NCBI RefSeq assembly: GCF_000150955.2
Contig: NC_011670.1
Coordinates: 943,359 to 1,007,358, forward strand
Direction of reading: 5' to 3'
Source of the DNA: Phaeodactylum tricornutum CCAP 1055/1
Taxonomy: Eukaryota; Bacillariophyta; Bacillariophyceae; Surirellales; Neidiaceae
Length of the DNA: 64,000 bases
Positions 3,462 through 40,713 of the stretch are shown piece by piece; position 1 is the stretch's first letter; each line of letters opens with the position of its first letter. Made by a program: the position numbers and the translations under genes. A model generated the notes under the pieces. It searched no databases, was not told the origin of the DNA, and worked only from the letters and a program-made list of their open reading frames with translations.

Positions 3462-4791
3462 ACGCCCTTAAATGGGTTCGACAGTGCGCGGAATATCAGA
3501 ATTAGGCATCGCTTTGGTTGCGTTGTTCACCCTAAATTTTCTTTTACCGGCGGAGAGCTCTACAAAAGGACAGATGTGACGAGATGTGCTGACTCGCAAA
3601 TCGGCATGTACTTCCTGTAGTTAAGCACATGGGCAGTCAGCTTCAGTGTTGACAGAAATTTGAAAGCGAAGTCACGAGCATGGGGACAAATTCTAAGCAG
3701 TCCTCACAACGGACGATTGCTTGAGGAAAACGTTCTCGAGCCTATCATCCCATCTCGTCTCACTTGGTGGAAAGCAATTTTGCATTGTCTTAGGGTTGCA
3801 CAAACTACACAAAAAAACAACAGCGACGCGCTAATACAGTGCCCATTTTTAGGCCCCTATCTTCTACGAAAACAAAGATTTTAGGGTTCTGCTTTTATGT
3901 CGACAGCCTCCTCTTATTAGCTTTGATCGTGGGGCTTATCCGGTCTTCGTCTCGATATGAAGATGACCTTCAGAAATAAAGTATTCCTCCATTCTTATCA
4001 TAAAAATAGCCTCAATAATAATAAAGAGTATAAAACGATTGCCATATTAAAAAGTATGTACTTTTTTGGAGATAGATGAGGCTTGTATGAACATTTGTCT
4101 CCTTGAATCAGAAGTCGAGAAGTCAGAGACATATGCCGCGACAGATATGAGAGTCAATGACTATTTCTCTTAAAATGTCGATGTCCCATGAAATGAGTCG
4201 CCGTCTATTTTTATATTTTTTGGAAGACCAATTTGTGTGTATCTAAATTTCACGAGTACGCCAAGGAAGTCCACTCATACGATCATGTCGGGCAAATACA
4301 TCGATCAAGGTCGGACATGAACCAATCTCAGATGGCGTGTCTCACGTCTGCGCGCTCAACTTCCAGTTAGATACATAACATAAGTAACATGCTTTCGTTC
4401 GAATCGGTAGTTCTTAGACCTAACGACGCCCTTGAAATCACACCTATCGTTAACCAATAATGTGTGTGTGAATTCAAACGTGAAATGGACAGATTCGACG
4501 TTATTGCCTTGCCTTGCAGTTGGTATCGAAAGATTCCCGACGATCAACCGTCGGAATCCGATACCCCAAAGCTGATATCTGGCTGGCTGTCAGAAAGCGT
4601 AGGATTGCCGATCTCATCCGCACCGAAAAAGTGAAGTGCGCTCATAAAATACTTTCGGCGAAGAAAACAGAGATATTCCCAGCCGCAACAGGTAATTGTT
4701 AGTTGACAAAACTGACAGTGAGTGAATACTGACACCTGAACCTCACGAGAACAAAATTCTCTCCTCTGTGTTCAGCGTACCGATTGCGAAA
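3462..4791. other. Long intergenic region with one imperfect palindrome
   Basis: About 1.3 kb without a credible gene; the open frames here lack good starts and show no family features. At 4523-4562 an imperfect palindrome (arms TATCGAAAGATTCCCGACG and CGTCGGAATCCGATA) could form a hairpin. It lies about 230 bp upstream of the GMC oxidoreductase start and could be a binding site or an old repeat. A TGACAGTGAGTGA run lies near 4718. Confidence 0.4.
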
Positions 4792-6438
4792 ATGATATAT
4801 CGGTCAGCGCTCGTCGTCCTTTCCTTGATGTGGGCCGTTACAGCCAAAGACTACGACTTCATCGTTGTCGGAGCTGGAAGTGCGGGCAGCATCGTTTCTT
4901 CGGAGTTAGTGAAAAGTGGAGCTGACGTTCTTCTGATTGAAGCTGGCGGTGACAACACCGATCCAGCAATCGATAGCTTGCGCTCCTATTTCGACCTCGC
5001 CTTTGGTGCGCTATTCAATCCTTTCAGCGGCTTTAAATGGATTCAATGGGGATACTTTAGCACGGAGCAAACCTTAGCTGGCGCAGGAGCCGGTGCTACC
5101 CCTAAAACATTTGGAATCCCTCGAGGGCGTGTGCTGGGTGGGTCGCATTCAATCAACGCCTGCGCATACGTTCAAGCCAACGCTGACGATTTCAACAATA
5201 TCGCGGCCGAAGTGAATGATAACATGTGGCGATGGCGTCGCACTCAACGCCTTCGAAATAAGCTGGAACGGACCATTGGTATCACAAAACTAGGCAAAAC
5301 TCAGACTGGAGCACTGGACTTCATTGCCACGGCCCACGAAGTGCTCGGCTTCCCGTTCAACTCTAATCCAACTCAAGGGGATCAGTATGGAATCAGCCCG
5401 TCGTTCTGGACCGGACAAGAGTCCAGTGAAGGTGGAATTCGAACTACCGCATTCGACGCGTTCGTTCTCCCTGTTTTGAACAGCAGTAATCGAAAAGGTA
5501 CCATCGACGTTGTCACATTCCACCAAGTGCAGCATCTCATCTTTGATGAGAACGATTCGACCAAGGTCGTCGGAGTTAGCACAATGAATGTCCGCTCAAA
5601 TGTTGCAACGGAATTCCGTGCGTTGAAGGAAGTCATCCTGTCGAGTGGGACCTACAACACTCCACAGATCCTCATGCTCTCCGGTATTGGACCTCAAGCT
5701 CATCTCAATGACTTGGGTCTGGCTACAAAAATTGACCTTCCGGGTGTCGGCTCAAATCTTCGGGACCACTATTCAGTTGCAACATTTTGGGATTTAAAAA
5801 ATTTGCCAGAGGGAGCCCCGTTTCTATTCCAAAGTCCTTCTCTCAACATGTTTGGACCAGAACAGCAGGGTCAGCCCTCATTCCAATTCGAGCTGGCGGG
5901 AAACTTCGGTTCTGTCGTCCCCCTCCGCCAAGTCTCGACCGGTACGGTTCGTCTGCAATCTTCGGATCCTATGGCATCCCCGATCATTGATCCCAATGTA
6001 TTGAGTACTTCGAGTGATGTCGACAATATGGTCGACGGTCTCGAAAACTATTTGCTACCTTTCTTCCAAGGCCTCATTGACAAGAACTTGGTCACGACAA
6101 ATAGCCTCAGTCCCAGCGCCTCCGCTGAGGAAATACGTCAGTATGTGATCGAAAGGTTCGATACAAATCACCATCCCGTCGGAACTTGCAAGATAGGGTC
6201 GAGTTCAGATCCAATGGCAGTGGTGGATAGTAATTTTATCGTGCGTGGCACCGCCAACCTTCGCGTTATTGACGCTTCCATCTTTCCTGAAGTCCCGTCC
6301 GGGAACATCAACGGGCCGACCATGACTGCTGCTCTGTTGGGTGCTCGTAAGATTAAGCTGGCGCATCGCTCCTCAATGACGCTCGATGCTGATGACGAGG
6401 AAGAAGACGATGGCAATCATGTCCGTAAGAATGTTTAA
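4792..6438 (+). CDS. Secreted GMC-family oxidoreductase
   Basis: A 548-residue FAD-dependent glucose-methanol-choline oxidoreductase, the usual family length. ATG at 4792 gives a classic signal peptide (MIYRSALVVLSLMWAVTA) directly followed by the mature domain. The FAD dinucleotide-binding motif IVVGAGSAGS lies near residues 24-33, the GMC signature GRVLGGSHSINA near 112, and the second signature SSGTYNTPQILMLSGIGP near 283. The catalytic His is present in NHHPVGTCKIG, with a conserved Asn in GNINGPT. Expected to oxidise an alcohol or sugar in the endomembrane system, at the surface or outside the cell. An acidic tail (DADDEEEDD) ends the protein. It is not close to the second GMC gene of the window at 23777-25863, which has photodecarboxylase residues. 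Confidence 0.85.
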   Translation: MIYRSALVVLSLMWAVTAKDYDFIVVGAGSAGSIVSSELVKSGADVLLIEAGGDNTDPAIDSLRSYFDLAFGALFNPFSGFKWIQWGYFSTEQTLAGAGAGATPKTFGIPRGRVLGGSHSINACAYVQANADDFNNIAAEVNDNMWRWRRTQRLRNKLERTIGITKLGKTQTGALDFIATAHEVLGFPFNSNPTQGDQYGISPSFWTGQESSEGGIRTTAFDAFVLPVLNSSNRKGTIDVVTFHQVQHLIFDENDSTKVVGVSTMNVRSNVATEFRALKEVILSSGTYNTPQILMLSGIGPQAHLNDLGLATKIDLPGVGSNLRDHYSVATFWDLKNLPEGAPFLFQSPSLNMFGPEQQGQPSFQFELAGNFGSVVPLRQVSTGTVRLQSSDPMASPIIDPNVLSTSSDVDNMVDGLENYLLPFFQGLIDKNLVTTNSLSPSASAEEIRQYVIERFDTNHHPVGTCKIGSSSDPMAVVDSNFIVRGTANLRVIDASIFPEVPSGNINGPTMTAALLGARKIKLAHRSSMTLDADDEEEDDGNHVRKNV

Positions 6439-22958: not shown

Positions 22959-23354
22959 TCAGGACGACGCTTCACTGTCCATACTTGTTGCTCCGTCTTT
23001 AACACATGCTTCCGCCTTTGGTACCCGAATCGCGACGGCATGTCCGTCGTATTCCTTTACCAAAATTGCCGAGCTCTCAGTTTCGATAGTTATCAACGGA
23101 GCCGCGTATATTGCACCATCCGAAGACGACTCTTTAGAATCTGGTTGTAACTGAGAAGCCAGTCTAACCAAGTTTGTATACGTTCCGGAGTCCTCGTTGC
23201 CCATATTCCCTCTCGTGGCGAGACACAGCCCCGCAGGATCGTTGCACAAAAGCCCCCCCACGTGAGCCCTGTCACCCGAGACCATTGAATGAATTAATGA
23301 TTCCGATTGGCTGCGTCCCGATTGCCTTCCGTTGCTTGCCGATGGAGCACTCAT
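22959..23354 (-). CDS. LAMTOR5: Ragulator subunit LAMTOR5 (HBXIP-like)
   Basis: A 131-residue protein starting MSAPSASNGRQSGRSQ. The core HVGGLLCNDPAGLCLATRGN, then TYTNLVRLASQL and AILVKEYDGHAVAIRV, matches the roadblock fold of HBXIP/LAMTOR5 (GVLCTDSQGLNLGCRG and QKHDGITVAVH in the animal protein). LAMTOR5 is part of the pentameric Ragulator that anchors Rag GTPases and TORC1 to lysosomal or vacuolar membranes. The diatom protein has an extra acidic insert and short tails at both ends. ATG at 23354 is the first in frame; a TGACTGTGAA motif lies 24 bp upstream (23378-23387). The assignment rests on motif matching in a short, divergent family. Confidence 0.75.
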   Translation of the reverse strand: MSAPSASNGRQSGRSQSESLIHSMVSGDRAHVGGLLCNDPAGLCLATRGNMGNEDSGTYTNLVRLASQLQPDSKESSSDGAIYAAPLITIETESSAILVKEYDGHAVAIRVPKAEACVKDGATSMDSEASS

Positions 23355-23776
23355 TTTGTGATCCAAGAAGAAAGGCTTCACAGTCAGCAAATTGATCGTG
23401 TCAATGGAAAGATGATTATTCACTCAGCCAGACAACGAAGTTTGCCTTCATCGACAATTACGCCATCGTCGTGCTTCATTGTCACAGTCAGTGAGAATAA
23501 CTACGATAAAGGAATTGTCGAATGTGACATCACTCTTTTCTAACTGTAAACATGTTTGACTGCTGTACGACATTTGGTTGTCTTGGTGATTTCTGTATAA
23601 TTTGGAATTCACCTAATTGTGATAAACTGCAAAAACATCATGTAAGCGGAAAATTTCACTACAATGGAATGCATTAATTGTAGTGCTGGCGTCATTTACT
23701 ATTCAGTGCTGTAGCGAGGAAGCTATACGTAGCGGTGCGGAACAAGAACACATGCTTTCCGATCAATGACACATGC
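23355..23776. other. Intergenic region with two GACTGTGA-type motifs
   Basis: 422 bp between the LAMTOR5 start and the photodecarboxylase stop. TTCACAGTCA at 23378 and GTCACAGTCA at 23481 are two copies of the recurrent window motif. Nothing else was recognised. Confidence 0.5.
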
Positions 23777-25863
23777 CTAGGCTGAGGCGGTCGTTGCAGC
23801 AGGATGTGTGCTCCCTTTTTCTCTGAAAATTTCAATGTTCAGCTGGGATACGGGTTGCCGAACAAAAACAGCGGCCCGATCCGCTATCATGACGGTCGGT
23901 GTTGCCGTTTGTCCTCCTGGAATGCAGGGGAAGACAGATGAATCCGCCACACGTACACCATTGACCCCAATTACACGTAGATCGGGCCCAACAACAGCCC
24001 CACGACCCGTTCCCATTTTGCATGTCCCCGTTAAAGCATTGGCGGTATGGAGCGAGTTACGAATGTATTCGTCAATCTCTTCATCCGTTTGCACATCTGG
24101 CCCTGGATACACCTCTTGACCAAGGTACTCGCCCCATTCCGGTCGGTTACCGAGCATACGTCCAAGCTTGATACCAGCACGTAGTGTGGCAAGATCATCC
24201 TGGTTAGAGAGGTATCCGCCATCAATCATAGGCTTTACGTGCGAGTTGGAAGAAGATAACCGGATCCTTCCCTTGCTTTTTGCTCGACATGCAACACTCT
24301 GGAACGAATAACCATCTTCAACTGTTTTCATCGTACGGAATTTGGTATACGTGGTCATTCCGTCGGGTCCAAGAGCGCGAGCTGCCAAGAATCTAATCTG
24401 CAAGTCCGGTTGTTCGAGTGAATCCGATGTCCGAACGAAAGCGCCATGATCGCATCCAGTGGAGGTCAAAAGACCACTTTTAAAAAATAGCCACTGGAAG
24501 ACTGGAATGGGGTTTGTCTTACCGAAGAGCCGCAATTTAGAAGTAACAGAAACTCCCTTTTGAGGGGTTTTAAAGGAAACGACAGCAGCTGGGTGATCCT
24601 GCAGGTTCTCACCAACTGCCGAGTTGTCGTGGACTACTGGAATGCCCAGCGACCGTAAGTGCTTGCCAGGTCCAATTCCGGAGCACATGAGAAGCTGAGG
24701 GGATGCAATTGCTCCACCTGTCACCAGCACTTCGCCACCCTCTTTCAAACAAGCTTGAAATGTCTAGAATACAATACCAAGTATAAGGACAGCGGCATCC
24801 AAAAGGATGAATGTAATCAAAGGTCGGAATCACGTACCGTACATGTGTCATCGCCCATCAAATCGTAGGTAATCCCTTTCGCTGTTTTTGTCTCATCAAA
24901 GTCGATCCTTCTCACCATAGTGCCAGTTCGAACTATGACATTTGAGCGCTTGGCCGCTTTACTTAGAAATGCTGTGGCTCCCGAACATCGTTCTCCGTTT
25001 ACTTCTGAAACCTGGAAGCGCCCAACGCCATCCTGCGGATGCGACCAGTTGTTGAAATCATCATTGGTTCCGAGGCCAGCTGCCTCCCCTACCTCCAGGA
25101 ATAACTTGCTCAATGGATTTTGGTATCGCACCTCATCCATGACCCACTCCCCATCCGCACCGTGGAACGTGGCATCCCGGCCCGTCTCATCCTTTTGTGA
25201 TTGCTTGAAGAAAGGAAGCACATCAGTAGCCGTCCACCCGGGAATGTTCCAGCTGTTGTAATCTTCCGCTGACCCACGGTGATGCAGACATACATTGGTG
25301 CACGAAGATCCGCCGAGAATCTTGTGCCATAGCGTGTTCGTCACATTGTGAGACAAATGGATGGCGCCGGATATAGCTAGTGCCTATACTGTGCTTACCT
25401 TGCCGCGTTGCAAAAACACATTCCGTCCGTTGCAACCCTTTTCACCGCCCGTTTCATGTTGCCAATCGTATTTACTGCGAAAGAGCCGTAAGACTCCAGC
25501 CGGAATCCTGATGAAAAGACTTTTGTAGTCCGAGCCGCCAGCCTCTAGTACGAGCACACGCTTGGACTCGTCCTGCGAAAGGCGTTCAGCCAAAACGCAC
25601 CCAGCCAACCCTCCCCCGCAGATAATGTAGTCGTACGGTTCCGCCACGACCTTCCTTTCGTCCTCTTCGAAGGTTATGAGAAGAAGGTAGGTGGTTTAGT
25701 GAATGTGAACGTTCTCAACAGAAGTTGTCTGGCCAAAGGATTATGGTTGATTACCTTGTGCGCGCGGTACGTTGCCAAGAGGTTTGGCTCCCGCCATCGT
25801 TGTAGCAGATGCGGACGAAACTGACAGGGTCCAAACCAGGAGGCTCCGCAGAGATTTCTTCAT
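23777..25863 (-). CDS. FAP: Probable fatty acid photodecarboxylase (GMC family)
   Basis: Exons: 25863-25755, 25664-25399, 25320-24838, 24763-23777 (introns 90, 78, 74 nt); 614 residues. After a signal-like leader (MKKSLRSLLVWTLSVSSASA) come the FAD motif YIICGGGLAGCVLAERLS and GGSSCTNVCLHHRG. The general GMC catalytic His of HPVGTCKMG is missing: the site reads HTANALTGTCKMG. Instead the residues diagnostic of Chlorella FAP are present: Cys in TSTGCD (here about 390; CvFAP C432), Arg in PDLQIRF (about 410; R451), and His/Asn in HTAN (about 525 and 528; H572/N575). The C-terminal half (GYLSNQDDLATLRAGIK, IPGGQTATP) also aligns with CvFAP from memory. FAP splits fatty acids to alkanes or alkenes plus CO2 in blue light. 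The leader lacks the Phe usual after the diatom plastid cleavage site, so targeting is unclear. Confidence 0.82.
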
Positions 25864-26413: not shown

Positions 26414-27876
26414 TTATTGGACAGCCATCTGCTGTTTGGCTTGTGCAGCTTCCTGAGCAGCTTCTGCCTCGGCTTTTTGTTTTTCCTTTTGATTCTCCAG
26501 TTCGACATTAAGCTTCTTCTGCAATTCAAGGACCTCCCGCATTTGCTTCTTGCCATCATCGTCCTTACCTGCCTTTTTCAGTGCAAATGACCGAGCGCGC
26601 ATACCGACAATCATTATGCCCATACCATCGGCGTGGTTGCCCTCTTTCGTCTCCAGGTGTTCCTTACCAAGCTTTTCAGCAATATCGTACTGTTCGTTGG
26701 CCTTAGCGTAATTGCCCTGACGACTGAATGTATTCCCGATATTGACGAAAATTGAACTTCGTTCCCAATCTAGGCGTCCACAGCGAGGCTCGTTTTCCAG
26801 CATGGGGAGAACCTTTTCGTAACTTTCCCGGGCTTCGTCATTGCGATCCAAAGCCGCGAGAGCGTTACCGCGGTGAAGGTAGGCGGATCGCAAACAAAGC
26901 TGCGAAACACGGAGCGCCTGAAGCTTTAGAGTGGTGGGGTGCGAGAGACCAGGGTACGTAGCATTTTGTTCATACTTAGGATCCATTGTCGGGTTCTCGT
27001 TGGCCTAGCAAATGCAATTAAAGTCAGAGAAAGTTCAAATGCACCCGCCACCCGTTGACGACCCTGCGTTCTTACCTCGATCGCAATGTTATCCATATCA
27101 TAGAAACCATCGGACGCAATTTCAATAGCCTTATCGGCGCAACGAAGTGCCGCCTCGGCGTATTCCTTTCCATAGCAGCTAAGGTAACGCTTGCTGATCT
27201 CGGAGAGACTAAGACTGGCGCATGCAGGTTCCCGGAGAACTGTACTAAGCCGAAGGGCGAACTTGGCCGAGTTTAAACGTTCCAAGCGGCGTTTTTTGCT
27301 TGCTTCGTCGTCCGCATCAAAGACGGCTTCCGTATACACCTCCGACGGATTAGTATCATCCTCATCCTCATCTTCTTCCGAAAAAAGTAGCTTAGCGAGC
27401 TTGATCTTTTGGTCACGACGGGTCATCGATGCGTAATGCGCCGTTGTCACGCGGGGCAGCAAGTCAGACTTGAGAGCGGTAAAGTAAGCATTTTCACCGC
27501 GTTTGCGACGTAGGACACTGTCCTCTAGGTCAATAACTAACGTCAAGTCAGCCACACCTCCATCGTCGTATCCCTCACGATCCAGAGCTTTGTAGCCGCT
27601 ACCGGGGACCTTGGGCTCGTCCAACAACTTGGCAGAACCAAGCTACGAAACATCAAGAGGGAGAGAAACGGTTGAGGTGAAAATAGTTTCAGTCCGTACA
27701 CAGTATGCGTACTACGTGTCCTTCCTGAAGGGTGCGACACCGGCCCAGCAACCGCGGATCGACCGCCAACTTACTTCGTCGTGGACGGGAGCTGGTGGAG
27801 GAGGTAGATCCGCCTTGTCTAACTTGCGACTCTGGGCACGCTCCTTTCCTTTTCCAGTTTTCGCTTTCTTGCCCAT
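26414..27876 (-). CDS. TPR-repeat protein, unrecognised family
   Basis: Exons: 27876-27775, 27642-27076, 27004-26414 (introns 132 and 71 nt), all phase 0; 419 residues. The basic N-terminus [20 protein letters not shown] is followed by an acidic patch (EEDEDEDD) and then helices with tetratricopeptide spacing: [33 protein letters not shown] with [12 protein letters not shown], and [20 protein letters not shown] with [10 protein letters not shown]. The C-terminal 50 residues are a Gln/Ala/Glu-rich coiled coil. TPRs bind partner proteins; the partner is unknown. The basic start suggests nuclear or nucleolar location. The upstream region carries a cluster of TGACGT elements. Confidence 0.85.
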
Positions 27877-36084: not shown

Positions 36085-36445
36085 AATCCATCAATTTCTG
36101 ATACTTGAGCAAACGCATCCCTGCAATTGTGGTTAAATAATTTGAAGTATGGTAGAAAGACCAGTTAACTGTATTTCTTTTTATTTGCATTGATGCATCT
36201 CTCGTTGTCTGCTCTGTCTAGCTAGAGGGCAGCGTAAGGCCCTTACAGTGAGCGTAAAAATATTCTTACGTGAAGGAAGAGTAGGATTAGAGTTTTCTAG
36301 ATTTTCTTTGTTGAAGATGCGAAAAAGTCATAGCATCGAACCTGCCCATATCTTTTCGGTCACTGGCAAACTCACCACACTGAAAGTGAATCCAAAACAT
36401 CTGCCGTCAAGACCATATACACTCCATTGTTTCTATTCGTGCACC
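36085..36445. other. Intergenic, copine A promoter
   Basis: 361 bp. The copine A frame is open upstream to about 36248 with another ATG at 36317, but that extension has no C2 homology, so it is treated as 5' UTR. Nothing else was recognised. Confidence 0.45.
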
Positions 36446-38441
36446 ATGAGATTGCACTTATCAATATGGGCTGAAGACCTCCCCGGCACTTCGATTGTCG
36501 GCACGCCTGATCCATTTGCCGTCGTGACAGTATTGAACGATGACCCCGGAAGGCGACCAACTTTGGTCGGAAAAACCGAAACAATCCAAAACACGTTTAG
36601 CCCGGATTGGACCAAGATTATGACTCTTGAAGACTTTGAATTAGGCGCATCCACAAAAATTGTAGTGTCGATATATGACGACAACAAACGAAACGATGTT
36701 CCGATGGGATCGACACTTTTTGACGTCGGCTCGGTCCTTGGAGCCAAGGGCAGCATCCTAGCAAAAGAAATCAAGGGCGGTGGAGTCGTCGCTGTTCATG
36801 TCGAGCCAGCAACGGAGTCCGCAATTCTGCACTTTCAACTGCAAGGGAAAGATTTAATCAACACAGAGTGTTTGGGCCTGATGCGTAAGTCGGATCCATT
36901 CTTCGAGTTGCAGCGGTTGCGGAAGTCGCTGCGGAGTGGAGGCAAAGTATGGGACACAGTTTTTCGATCACATCCGGTCGACAATGATCTGAATCCACTT
37001 TGGAATGAAAGCTACATTGACTTGCAAACACTGTGCAGCGAGAAACGGAAACAGAAGCTGCGCATTGCCGTGTACGACTTCGAAAAGAACGGAAAGCATG
37101 TCCCAATGGGTGAGGTGAAGGTTTCTGTTGAAGAGCTTGTTGCTGCAATCAGCAAGAACGCTCATGGATCAGCCGATACTGCACTAACGCTGAAAAAAGA
37201 AGGAAATACCACTGGGCAATTAGTGGTTCTTGCTGCAAATATCACAGAAGAGGAAGGTCGGTCATCCAAAGTTGTTGTCGAGGAGCTGGAGGAAGAAATC
37301 AATGCAGAGGCCACGGCTGAAATGGAAGAAGAGATCACGGTAGCTGCTGAAAATGAAGAAGTTGTGGCAGAGCCGGATGATTTAAACATGATATCTCCAA
37401 CGTTTGTGAATTACATTGCCGGAGGATGCAAGCTGCATGTAGTGACTGCAATTGATTGCACTGCAACCAACGGTGATCCAAGAGAACCGAACTCCCTTCA
37501 TTTCTTTAAGGACAAAGGCCAGAACGACTATGAAGATGCACTAAATGACATCTGCACAATTTTGTCGAAATATGACTCAGACCAGCAATACCCACTCCTT
37601 GGATTTGGGGCCAAGCGCAATAATGCGGTTAGCCATTGTTTCTTGTTTGGAAACGAAGCAAATGGTGTGGACGGGATCCTGAAAACATACAGAGATACGT
37701 TTCGAGCGGGAATTGTCATGAGCTCTCCCAGGAATTTCTCCGAGTTGATTCATGCAGCTAGAAAGGAAGCAAAAGCCCAATTGGTGCGTTCCTGAAGTTT
37801 TTTACAGCGCTTGGGAATTGCTTTACTCACCAACCGTCTGTTTGAAATACAAAATATAGGGAAAAGGACAGGCCTACTCAATTCTCCTCTTATTCACAAG
37901 TGGCTCACCCCAAGATATGGAAGAGACTATGTCAGCCCTGCATGATGCCAAAGATGATCCTTTATCTGTAGTCATTGTTGGTGTTGGTGGAGGCGACTTC
38001 ACAGAAATAGCCAATATCAAGACCAAAGGCAGGAAATTTGTTTGCTTTGTTGATTATGAGGCACTCAAGGGTAAGCAGACAAAGCTGACTGAAGCCGCAC
38101 TGGACCAAATACCTGCACAGCTTGAATCCTGTTTTTTAAGCAAACACATTTTTCCTAATCCTGAGCCTGAGCCTGAAGATATTGCTGTTCAACCGTACCA
38201 AGAAATTGATGATGTACATGTACCTATCAAAATAAACGAAATGGGGGACCCAACTGTGACAGGACCAGCCCAGCCATCACAGGTGCACGCCAGAGTTGAA
38301 CAGGCCATGAATCAGGCAACCAAAATAGGCAAAAAGATATTCAAGGGAGCACAACGCAGGCAGTTTGGTAGATTCAAGCGTAATATGCGGAACAGTGTAA
38401 ACAAAGTCTCACAGCAGACAATTGGAATGCGAATTCTGTAA
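36446..38441 (+). CDS. Copine-like protein A (C2-C2-vWA), damaged MIDAS
   Basis: Exons 36446-37783 and 37860-38441 (76-nt phase-0 intron); 639 residues. Two C2 domains (about 1-125 and 130-270; GTPDPFAVVTVL, SIYDDNKRNDVPMGS) are followed by a Glu-rich linker of about 50 residues not found in copine B, then the copine vWA domain from YIAGGCKLHVVTAIDCTATN. Copines bind membranes in response to calcium through C2 and recruit partners through vWA. The metal-site motif is DCTATN rather than DxTxSN, and the strand that normally ends in a conserved Asp-Gly reads LLLFTSGSPQD. The basic C-terminus (KIGKKIFKGAQRRQFGRFKR) is also unique to this copy. ATG 36446 was chosen because it aligns with the start of copine B. 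Confidence 0.85.
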
Positions 38442-39003
38442 AGGGTTTACATTTACATAAGAAAACTTGCATACTTTTTCAAAAATGTTTGCCAAGAAAA
38501 AAGTTTGGTATTAAGGAAAGTGCAACAATATTGGGCTAGAATTGCGCCTAAGGATTGGAAGGATCCCACATGCTTGTGTAGGTGATCAAAGGTGTAAAAC
38601 ATAGAATTATAGACTTGTCCGATAGACTTACATTAGGGATATGACCCCCCCCTTATTATTCGACGTAGAGAAACGGCAGCAAACAGTCTGGCCGATGTCA
38701 GATAACACCGAACAAAGAAGTTGGTTTGTGTTTTGTGGAACATGACCAAGACTGATCTATTTTGTTACATTCTTTAGCGTTTGGCTCCAATATCCTAATA
38801 GATCCATGCCAAAACACTTTATACACGGAGAGATGAAGGTGTGCACCATCTTCTAGTATCAGGATTGCTGTAAAGAATTCGCGAGGGTTTTTCAATCGCC
38901 AACACCACATTATGACTTGGATTACAACGGCATCTCGCATATTGTTAACAAGGCTGAACCAAGCCCCAAAAAGAGTTACGATATTGTCCCTGCCTATCTC
39001 ACC
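38442..39003. other. Intergenic spacer between copines
   Basis: 562 bp between the tandem copines. A run of nine C precedes CCTTATTATTCG near 38645. The copine B frame is open upstream of its ATG but without C2 homology. No RNA gene was recognised. Confidence 0.4.
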
Positions 39004-40713
39004 ATGAAAGTAGAATTATCCTTACGGGCTATGGCTCTGAAAAACGTGGCCGGTGCCTTGAAAGGGATGAGTGATCCGTTCGCTGTCTGCACGCACATTG
39101 CTACAACGAAAGGCACAGCGCCGGACGTGTTAGGAAAGACCGAAGTCGTCAAGAATACGCTCAATCCGCAATGGACCAAGGTTTTTGTTTTCGACTACGA
39201 ACTCGGTACACCCATGAAAGTCGCCGTTAGCATCTTTGACGAAGTCCGTAAGGGTGACAACAAGTCCATGGGAAGCGCGATGTTTGATATTGGTGAGCTT
39301 CTCGGAGCACGGGGTAACACAAAAGCCAAACGGCTCAAAGGCGGAGGGACTCTTTTTGCGCACTTGCGAAAAAGCGAAGGGTCAGGATTGCTACGACTCA
39401 AAATGAAAGGTATCAAGCTCAAGAACGTTGAAGGAATGTTTTCAAAGTCTGATCCTTTTTTCGAATTATCACGGTGTATCAACAGTGCTGGTGGCGACAC
39501 ATGGGACAATGTCTACCGCTCCCAGCCGATCAAAAACAACCTTTCCCCGGACTGGGAAGAATCGACTTTACCACTGAGCACTCTCTGCGGAGGAAACAAG
39601 GATCTCCCGATTCAAGTCTCTGTATATGATTTTGAGGGTAGCGGCAAACACACGATCATGGGAATTTTTGAAACGACTGTGAACGGCCTTGTGAATGCTT
39701 CGACAAACGGCGCAGAGGATGTGGGCAAAGCTTTCAATCTACAAAAGAAAGGAAAAGATTGCGGTAGTGTTGTTATTCTCAAAGCCGAGGTAGCAGGGGA
39801 AGAGGTAGCTGAAAGAATGGCGCAAGTTTCGGTGTCGGAAACGAAGCCGTCAGTTTTCGTACCAGGAACACCCTCGTTTGTGGATTACATCAGTGGAGGC
39901 TGCGAACTTAATGTTGTTGTCGCTATTGATTTCACAGGATCGAATGGCGACCCGCGTAAACCTGGTACCCTCCACTACCGTCATCCAGACGGTTCCCACA
40001 ACGATTACGAAAAGGCAATTGCTTCCATCGTCAATATTCTGGCAAAGTACGATTCCGACCAAAAGTTCCCTGTCGTCGGCTTTGGTGCCAAGTACAATGG
40101 TGTGGTACGTCATTGTTTCCAGTGTGGACCAAGCCCTGAGGTTCACGGGGTACAGGGAGTTTTGGATGCATATCATTCCGTTTTCCAATCAGGACTCATT
40201 ATGAGCAGCCCGACTACGTTTGTCGAAGCAATTGAGACAGCTGCCTCTCGGGCTAACGTCACTCAGGAAGCTGCGAAACGCGACGGAAAGCAGGCTTACA
40301 CAATTTTGCTCATCTTGTCCGATGGTGCTGTGACAGATGTCCCGTCGACGAAACAATGTTTGGAACGAGTCAGTGATTCTCCTTTGTCAGTTGTGATTGT
40401 TGGTGTCGGTAGCGCGGATTTTACGTCCATGGAGTTTTTGGATGATTCCTCAGGAAAGCGCGATATTGCGCAGTTTGTCCAGTATAACAAGCATTCCTCC
40501 AGTCCGGTGGACCTGACGTCCGTTACACTGAAAGAAATTCCCGACCAGGTGGTTGGGTATTTCCAAAGCAAGTGCGTTTCACCCCTACCACCTATAGTCA
40601 CCCAGGAGTCAGATGTGGTGGTGGAGGATGAGGAAGAAATCGATCTCTCGTTGGACTTTAACGAGGACGAGATTGTAGTCTCCGGTGGTGGAACGGATGT
40701 CTGGGAGGTTTAG
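39004..40713 (+). CDS. Copine-like protein B (C2-C2-vWA)
   Basis: An intronless 569-residue protein, collinear with copine A upstream. C2A begins MKVELSLRAMALKNVAG with GMSDPFAVCTH and SIFDEVRKGDNKSMG; C2B has FSKSDPFFELSRC and VSVYDFEGSGKHTIMG. The vWA domain from YISGGCELNVVVAIDFTGSN keeps the DxTxSN metal site (about residue 308), and ILLILSDGAVTD keeps the Asp-Gly strand end, so this copy looks functional. The copine hallmark blocks NGDPRKPGTLHY and DSDQKFPVVGFGAK are present. An acidic tail follows. It is expected to act as a calcium-dependent membrane adaptor in the cytosol. Copine A has one intron; copine B none. Confidence 0.92.
   Translation: MKVELSLRAMALKNVAGALKGMSDPFAVCTHIATTKGTAPDVLGKTEVVKNTLNPQWTKVFVFDYELGTPMKVAVSIFDEVRKGDNKSMGSAMFDIGELLGARGNTKAKRLKGGGTLFAHLRKSEGSGLLRLKMKGIKLKNVEGMFSKSDPFFELSRCINSAGGDTWDNVYRSQPIKNNLSPDWEESTLPLSTLCGGNKDLPIQVSVYDFEGSGKHTIMGIFETTVNGLVNASTNGAEDVGKAFNLQKKGKDCGSVVILKAEVAGEEVAERMAQVSVSETKPSVFVPGTPSFVDYISGGCELNVVVAIDFTGSNGDPRKPGTLHYRHPDGSHNDYEKAIASIVNILAKYDSDQKFPVVGFGAKYNGVVRHCFQCGPSPEVHGVQGVLDAYHSVFQSGLIMSSPTTFVEAIETAASRANVTQEAAKRDGKQAYTILLILSDGAVTDVPSTKQCLERVSDSPLSVVIVGVGSADFTSMEFLDDSSGKRDIAQFVQYNKHSSSPVDLTSVTLKEIPDQVVGYFQSKCVSPLPPIVTQESDVVVEDEEEIDLSLDFNEDEIVVSGGGTDVWEV

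Follow-up and report, generated by a model that had tools for sequence, protein, structure and literature searches.

The question raised by this locus of the diatom Phaeodactylum tricornutum is whether a GMC-type gene on its minus strand codes for a fatty acid photodecarboxylase (FAP) or for another enzyme that only looks like one. We have analyzed a window of 64,000 nucleotides, the whole stretch C2:943359-1007358; the genome it belongs to comprises 88 contigs with 27,450,724 bases in total. All the coordinates below are positions in this window. The comparisons presented here make it very likely that the gene encodes the single FAP of this diatom, a GMC-family enzyme that uses FAD. Gene structure, family, the grouping with the FAP of Chlorella variabilis (CvFAP) and the residues separating CvFAP from other GMC enzymes are established directly from the data.

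Structure of the gene

Four exons on the minus strand join into a single open frame of 614 amino acids followed by a TAG. The start ATG at 25863 is the first Met past an upstream in-frame stop and the TAG ends at 23777, so that the limits given in a preliminary description of this DNA (23777..25863) were right. Exon 1 (25755..25863) contains the start codon and a hydrophobic leader, MKKSLRSLLVWTLSVSSASA/TTMAGAKPLGNVPRAQ. The FAD-binding GGGLAGC region is found in exon 2 (25399..25664), and exon 3 (24838..25320) carries the LGGSS motif and a further part of the GMC N-terminal domain. Exon 4 (23777..24763) codes for residues 287-614 and the stop, and has the FAP-diagnostic residues inside. The three introns, also on the minus strand, are of the GT-AG type: intron 1 (25665..25754, 90 nt, GTAATC...CGAAG), intron 2 (25321..25398, 78 nt, GTAAGC...CACAAG) and intron 3 (24764..24837, 74 nt, GTACGT...TTCTAG). 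Unspliced read-through of each of them runs into a stop, with frames ending at 25741, 25384 and 24817. Specifically for intron 1 we tried the six AG acceptors within 120 nt, and the frame continues only with the one ending at 25665; the other five were rejected, the frame closing early at 40-78 amino acids.

Similarity to photodecarboxylases and other GMC enzymes

The spliced protein matches both Pfam domains of the family above cut-off, PF00732 (GMC_oxred_N) with 123.6 bits and PF05199 (GMC_oxred_C) with 109.3 bits. When compared with solved structures (64 distinct sequences at E <= 1e-10), six CvFAP sequences rank at the top with 448-453 bits, and the best non-FAP structure is a choline dehydrogenase (PDB 9lq0) with 293 bits. 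CvFAP (PDB 5ncc, 6zh7, 6yru) is a GMC enzyme that shares 44% identity with the diatom protein in a pairwise alignment. The choline dehydrogenase belongs to the GMC family too, but it owns the HP catalytic His and is without the Cys, Arg, His and Asn of FAP.

There are data in this comparison that would fit an ordinary GMC dehydrogenase or oxidase with no more than a resemblance to FAP, akin to choline dehydrogenase or alcohol oxidase. NCBIfam returned choline dehydrogenase and MftG models only, each under its curated cut-off, and PRK02106 (choline dehydrogenase subfamily) scores 469.6 bits with the spliced protein. Bacterial homologs reach up to 40% identity (among the best 80 of 466 confirmed loci). 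Against this, the catalytic His kept in all 83 of the other GMC sequences compared is replaced by Ala, seven CvFAP-specific residues are present and the tree groups the protein with CvFAP (see the following sections), and we regard an ordinary GMC enzyme as a highly improbable identity. An ordinary choline dehydrogenase in particular was rejected on account of the replaced catalytic His together with the FAP-specific residues.

Homologs were also searched for in mobile elements. Exon 4 matched 1210 of 72,556 plasmid records, the best five listed having 39-40% identity, and the protein matched six of 50,697 phage records with 32.7-35.4% identity. In viral contigs there were 213 pattern matches and none was confirmed.

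Diagnostic residues

The preliminary description had pointed out the loss of the general GMC catalytic His (of HPVGT) and the presence of a Cys in TSTGCD, an Arg in DLQIRF and an HxxN in HTAN, in the order found in CvFAP and with the interval from Cys to Arg longer by one residue. All of this is borne out by the alignment with CvFAP, in which the residue numbering was anchored on C432 and the codons of the following residues were checked, all on the minus strand. Cys390 (24452..24454) is the counterpart of C432, Arg410 (24392..24394) of R451 and Tyr425 (24347..24349) of Y466, and the stretch His525-Thr-Ala-Asn528 (24038..24049) supplies the counterparts of H572 and N575. Ala529, aligned to A576, occupies the place of the catalytic His of other GMC enzymes, and further pairs are G421 with G462 and Q441 with Q486. 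The distance from Cys to Arg is 20 here versus 19 in CvFAP, which gives the extra residue. We take H572, N575, A576 and Q486 to be marks of FAP, in keeping with the alignment with CvFAP.

In order to see how specific these residues are, we counted them in 83 other GMC rows, 80 of them prokaryote loci (the best 80 of 466 confirmed) and three of the four remaining GMC genes in this genome (L001, on contig C16, was left out). Arg at R451, Gln at Q486, His at H572, Asn at N575 and Ala at A576 were each found in 0/83 rows. Cys at C432 appeared in one row, and so did Tyr at Y466 (1/83, with 3 gaps). The ordinary catalytic His was present at 576 in 83/83. Gly at 462 is uninformative, since 71 of the 83 rows have it. 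As to the four marks Cys, Arg, His and Asn, 82 of the 83 rows have none, and the remaining one (L028) has the Cys alone. On this count a chance likeness of the motifs was rejected; the rows had been gathered by likeness to this protein and to CvFAP, and represent near relatives and not a random draw. The motifs TSTGCD, DLQIRF and HTAN are all located within the uninterrupted exon 4 (24763-23777), and the diagnostic residues could therefore be removed only by loss of the whole exon.

The similarity to CvFAP is not complete. At 14 CvFAP site positions that we compared, nine residues are identical in the diatom protein (C432, R451, G462, Y466, F469, Q486, H572, N575 and A576) and five are changed. 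Four of these changes are A171V, T484S, S573T and S574A, and the fifth affects W479, which is a V in the multiple alignment or a gap in the pair alignment. Besides, four residues (GLKW) are missing from the diatom protein, which has the one more residue from Cys to Arg and another leader. The missing segment, the five altered positions out of 14 and the unusual leader would all be in line with a descendant of FAP whose main residues persist but whose activity in diatoms is gone or altered, such as by a move to another acid substrate or to flavin-dependent sensing. Nevertheless, the residues with the highest specificity for FAP (C, R, Y, Q, H, N and A) are kept, something unexpected in a relic, and we consider such a descendant unlikely.

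Diatoms have a red-derived plastid, and given this origin the Tyr of the diatom protein at the place of Y466 (24347-24349, minus strand), as in green algal FAPs, is odd. A passage of PMC11664916 gives this position as Tyr in green algal FAPs and Lys in red algal FAPs, and also describes R451 and C432 as conserved among known FAPs.

Phylogeny

Placement in a tree had been proposed in the preliminary description as a check of the FAP identity. In the first tree (34 rows, all kept columns) the diatom protein and CvFAP, the sole verified FAP in our trees, were grouped with support values of 100/99. A control tree built without CvFAP positions 425-490 and 568-580 (32 rows) gave the same group with 100/98, and a second control with exons 1-3 only (32 rows) with 99/94. 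For exons 1-3 the highest identity was to a bacterial homolog (L008, 44%) and CvFAP came only fourth in path distance, which makes the evidence from the N-terminal half taken by itself less strong. The trees retained 26 of the 80 prokaryote loci after thinning at 60% identity. One row of the residue count (L005) was in no tree, and two rows of the first tree (L002 and L003) were dropped from both controls as long branches.

The grouping with CvFAP, with and without the active-site columns, and the location of the diagnostic residues in one exon support the interpretation of the gene as a putative FAP. With a single verified FAP in the trees, a subclade of FAPs with a changed function would be indistinguishable from one that has kept it.

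Genomic context

With CvFAP as the query, the genome gave three matches along the gene described here, the best with 249 bits; at three further GMC genes the matches were weak and did not exceed 57 bits. PF00732 and PF05199 detect five GMC genes each in the 27.45 Mb. The number of FAP-like genes found was one, in a six-frame search in which the best candidates alone were scored.

A second GMC oxidoreductase is found in the window at 4726-6435 (plus strand), a 570-codon frame of ordinary type with a hydrophobic leader and the HHPVGTC motif kept. Its best solved match is an alcohol oxidase (165 bits), and it had a long branch and an unsure placement in the tree. Upstream of the FAP gene and on the same strand there is a cytochrome P450 (28476-30413, minus strand), with CYP4B1 (111 bits) and then CYP3A5 (106) as best solved matches, and a TPR-like frame (26417-27004) lies between the two. 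Directly downstream, at 22962-23423 (minus strand), we have found a homolog of the Ragulator subunit LAMTOR5 (68.6 bits). Further away, two adjacent frames with C2 and Copine domains (36194-40707, plus strand) are likely a tandem pair.

Chemistry and location

Counterparts of R451 and C432 are both present, which makes the chemistry of CvFAP the best reading for the diatom protein. The light reaction, substrate, product and compartment of the diatom enzyme are all predictions. By analogy with CvFAP, light would excite the FAD and the excited flavin would draw an electron from the bound fatty acid. CO2 would then be released, leaving an alkyl radical to be reduced and protonated with the aid of Arg410 (R451) and perhaps of Cys390 (C432), and the product would be an alkane or alkene with one carbon fewer than the acid. 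The order described for CvFAP in a passage of PMC13397541 is photoexcitation and electron transfer followed by a fast decarboxylation, after which the alkyl radical is the acceptor in a proton-coupled electron transfer. The same source presents radical termination as proceeding mainly via R451, C432 being a debated donor.

The leader (MKKSLRSLLVWTLSVSSASA/TTMAGAKP) has a positive start, a hydrophobic core with a mean hydropathy of up to 1.84 over nine residues, and small residues ahead of the likely cut. The likely cleavage, judged by eye, is SASA/TT, with Thr at +1 instead of Phe. The leader departs from the standard plastid type, and the absence of the usual plastid Phe announced in the preliminary description holds for the cut so placed. 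Moulin et al. 2021, as their title has it, reportedly place FAP in thylakoids, and because of this placement the non-standard leader counts against the FAP reading. Diatom proteins without that Phe may halt in the periplastidial compartment, and a leader of this type would allow a location outside the stroma. There, contact with C20-C22 polyunsaturated acids would be possible; in Phaeodactylum DHA is mostly found outside the plastid. It is conceivable, although we give it only a slim chance, that the diatom FAP has its site of action beyond the stroma, in the periplastidial compartment or on the ER side, and acts on C20-C22 polyunsaturated acids making C21:6 from DHA and not C15/C17 alkanes. 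As to the rule itself, a passage of PMC4329603 describes Phe at +1 as crucial for diatom plastid import (the ASAFAP rule), and adds that proteins above the ASAFind score cut-off may be without it.

Relation to earlier work

There is prior mention of a FAP homolog in this organism. A homolog of FAT (FA photolyase) in Phaeodactylum, Phatr3_J1341, was noted in 2018 and its role in this diatom was stated there as not known (passage in PMC6231261). We infer that Phatr3_J1341 is the present gene: organism and assigned function are the same, and one FAP-like gene was found in the genome. The J1341 strings in PMC5156380 and PMC8072121 turned out to be parts of longer gene numbers (J13418 and J13417). 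A passage of PMC10065435 cites nearly 200 putative FAPs from genomes or metagenomes of algae, along with the testing of another four FAPs in E. coli. In addition, a passage of the review PMC4483651 names the n-C21:6 alkene as the main hydrocarbon of photosynthetic diatoms, derived from DHA by decarboxylation. With these three records the novelty suggested in the preliminary description, which had considered alkane formation in diatoms poorly described, becomes weaker.

The consulted parts of PMC12391399, PMC6723882 and PMC5462543 yielded nothing on a Phaeodactylum FAP, and PMC10005330 contributed general background on hydrocarbons of algae. Among the matches listed from the open-licence literature we found no experimental test of the Phaeodactylum FAP, and the name of the species was absent from those listed for hydrocarbons. 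Neither did a search of the open-licence literature find heneicosahexaene and photodecarboxylase mentioned together.

Very probably, then, the gene is a member of the known FAP family, with a relative already mentioned in this same diatom. Its existence is little surprise, since putative FAPs have been reported from across the algae and a Phaeodactylum homolog was noted in 2018. The interest of the diatom FAP lies in its product and its place in the cell. With one complete FAP gene at hand in a diatom used as a model, the role of FAP in algae with red-derived complex plastids would become testable, and with the same gene the enzyme source of the C21:6 alkene could be put to the test.
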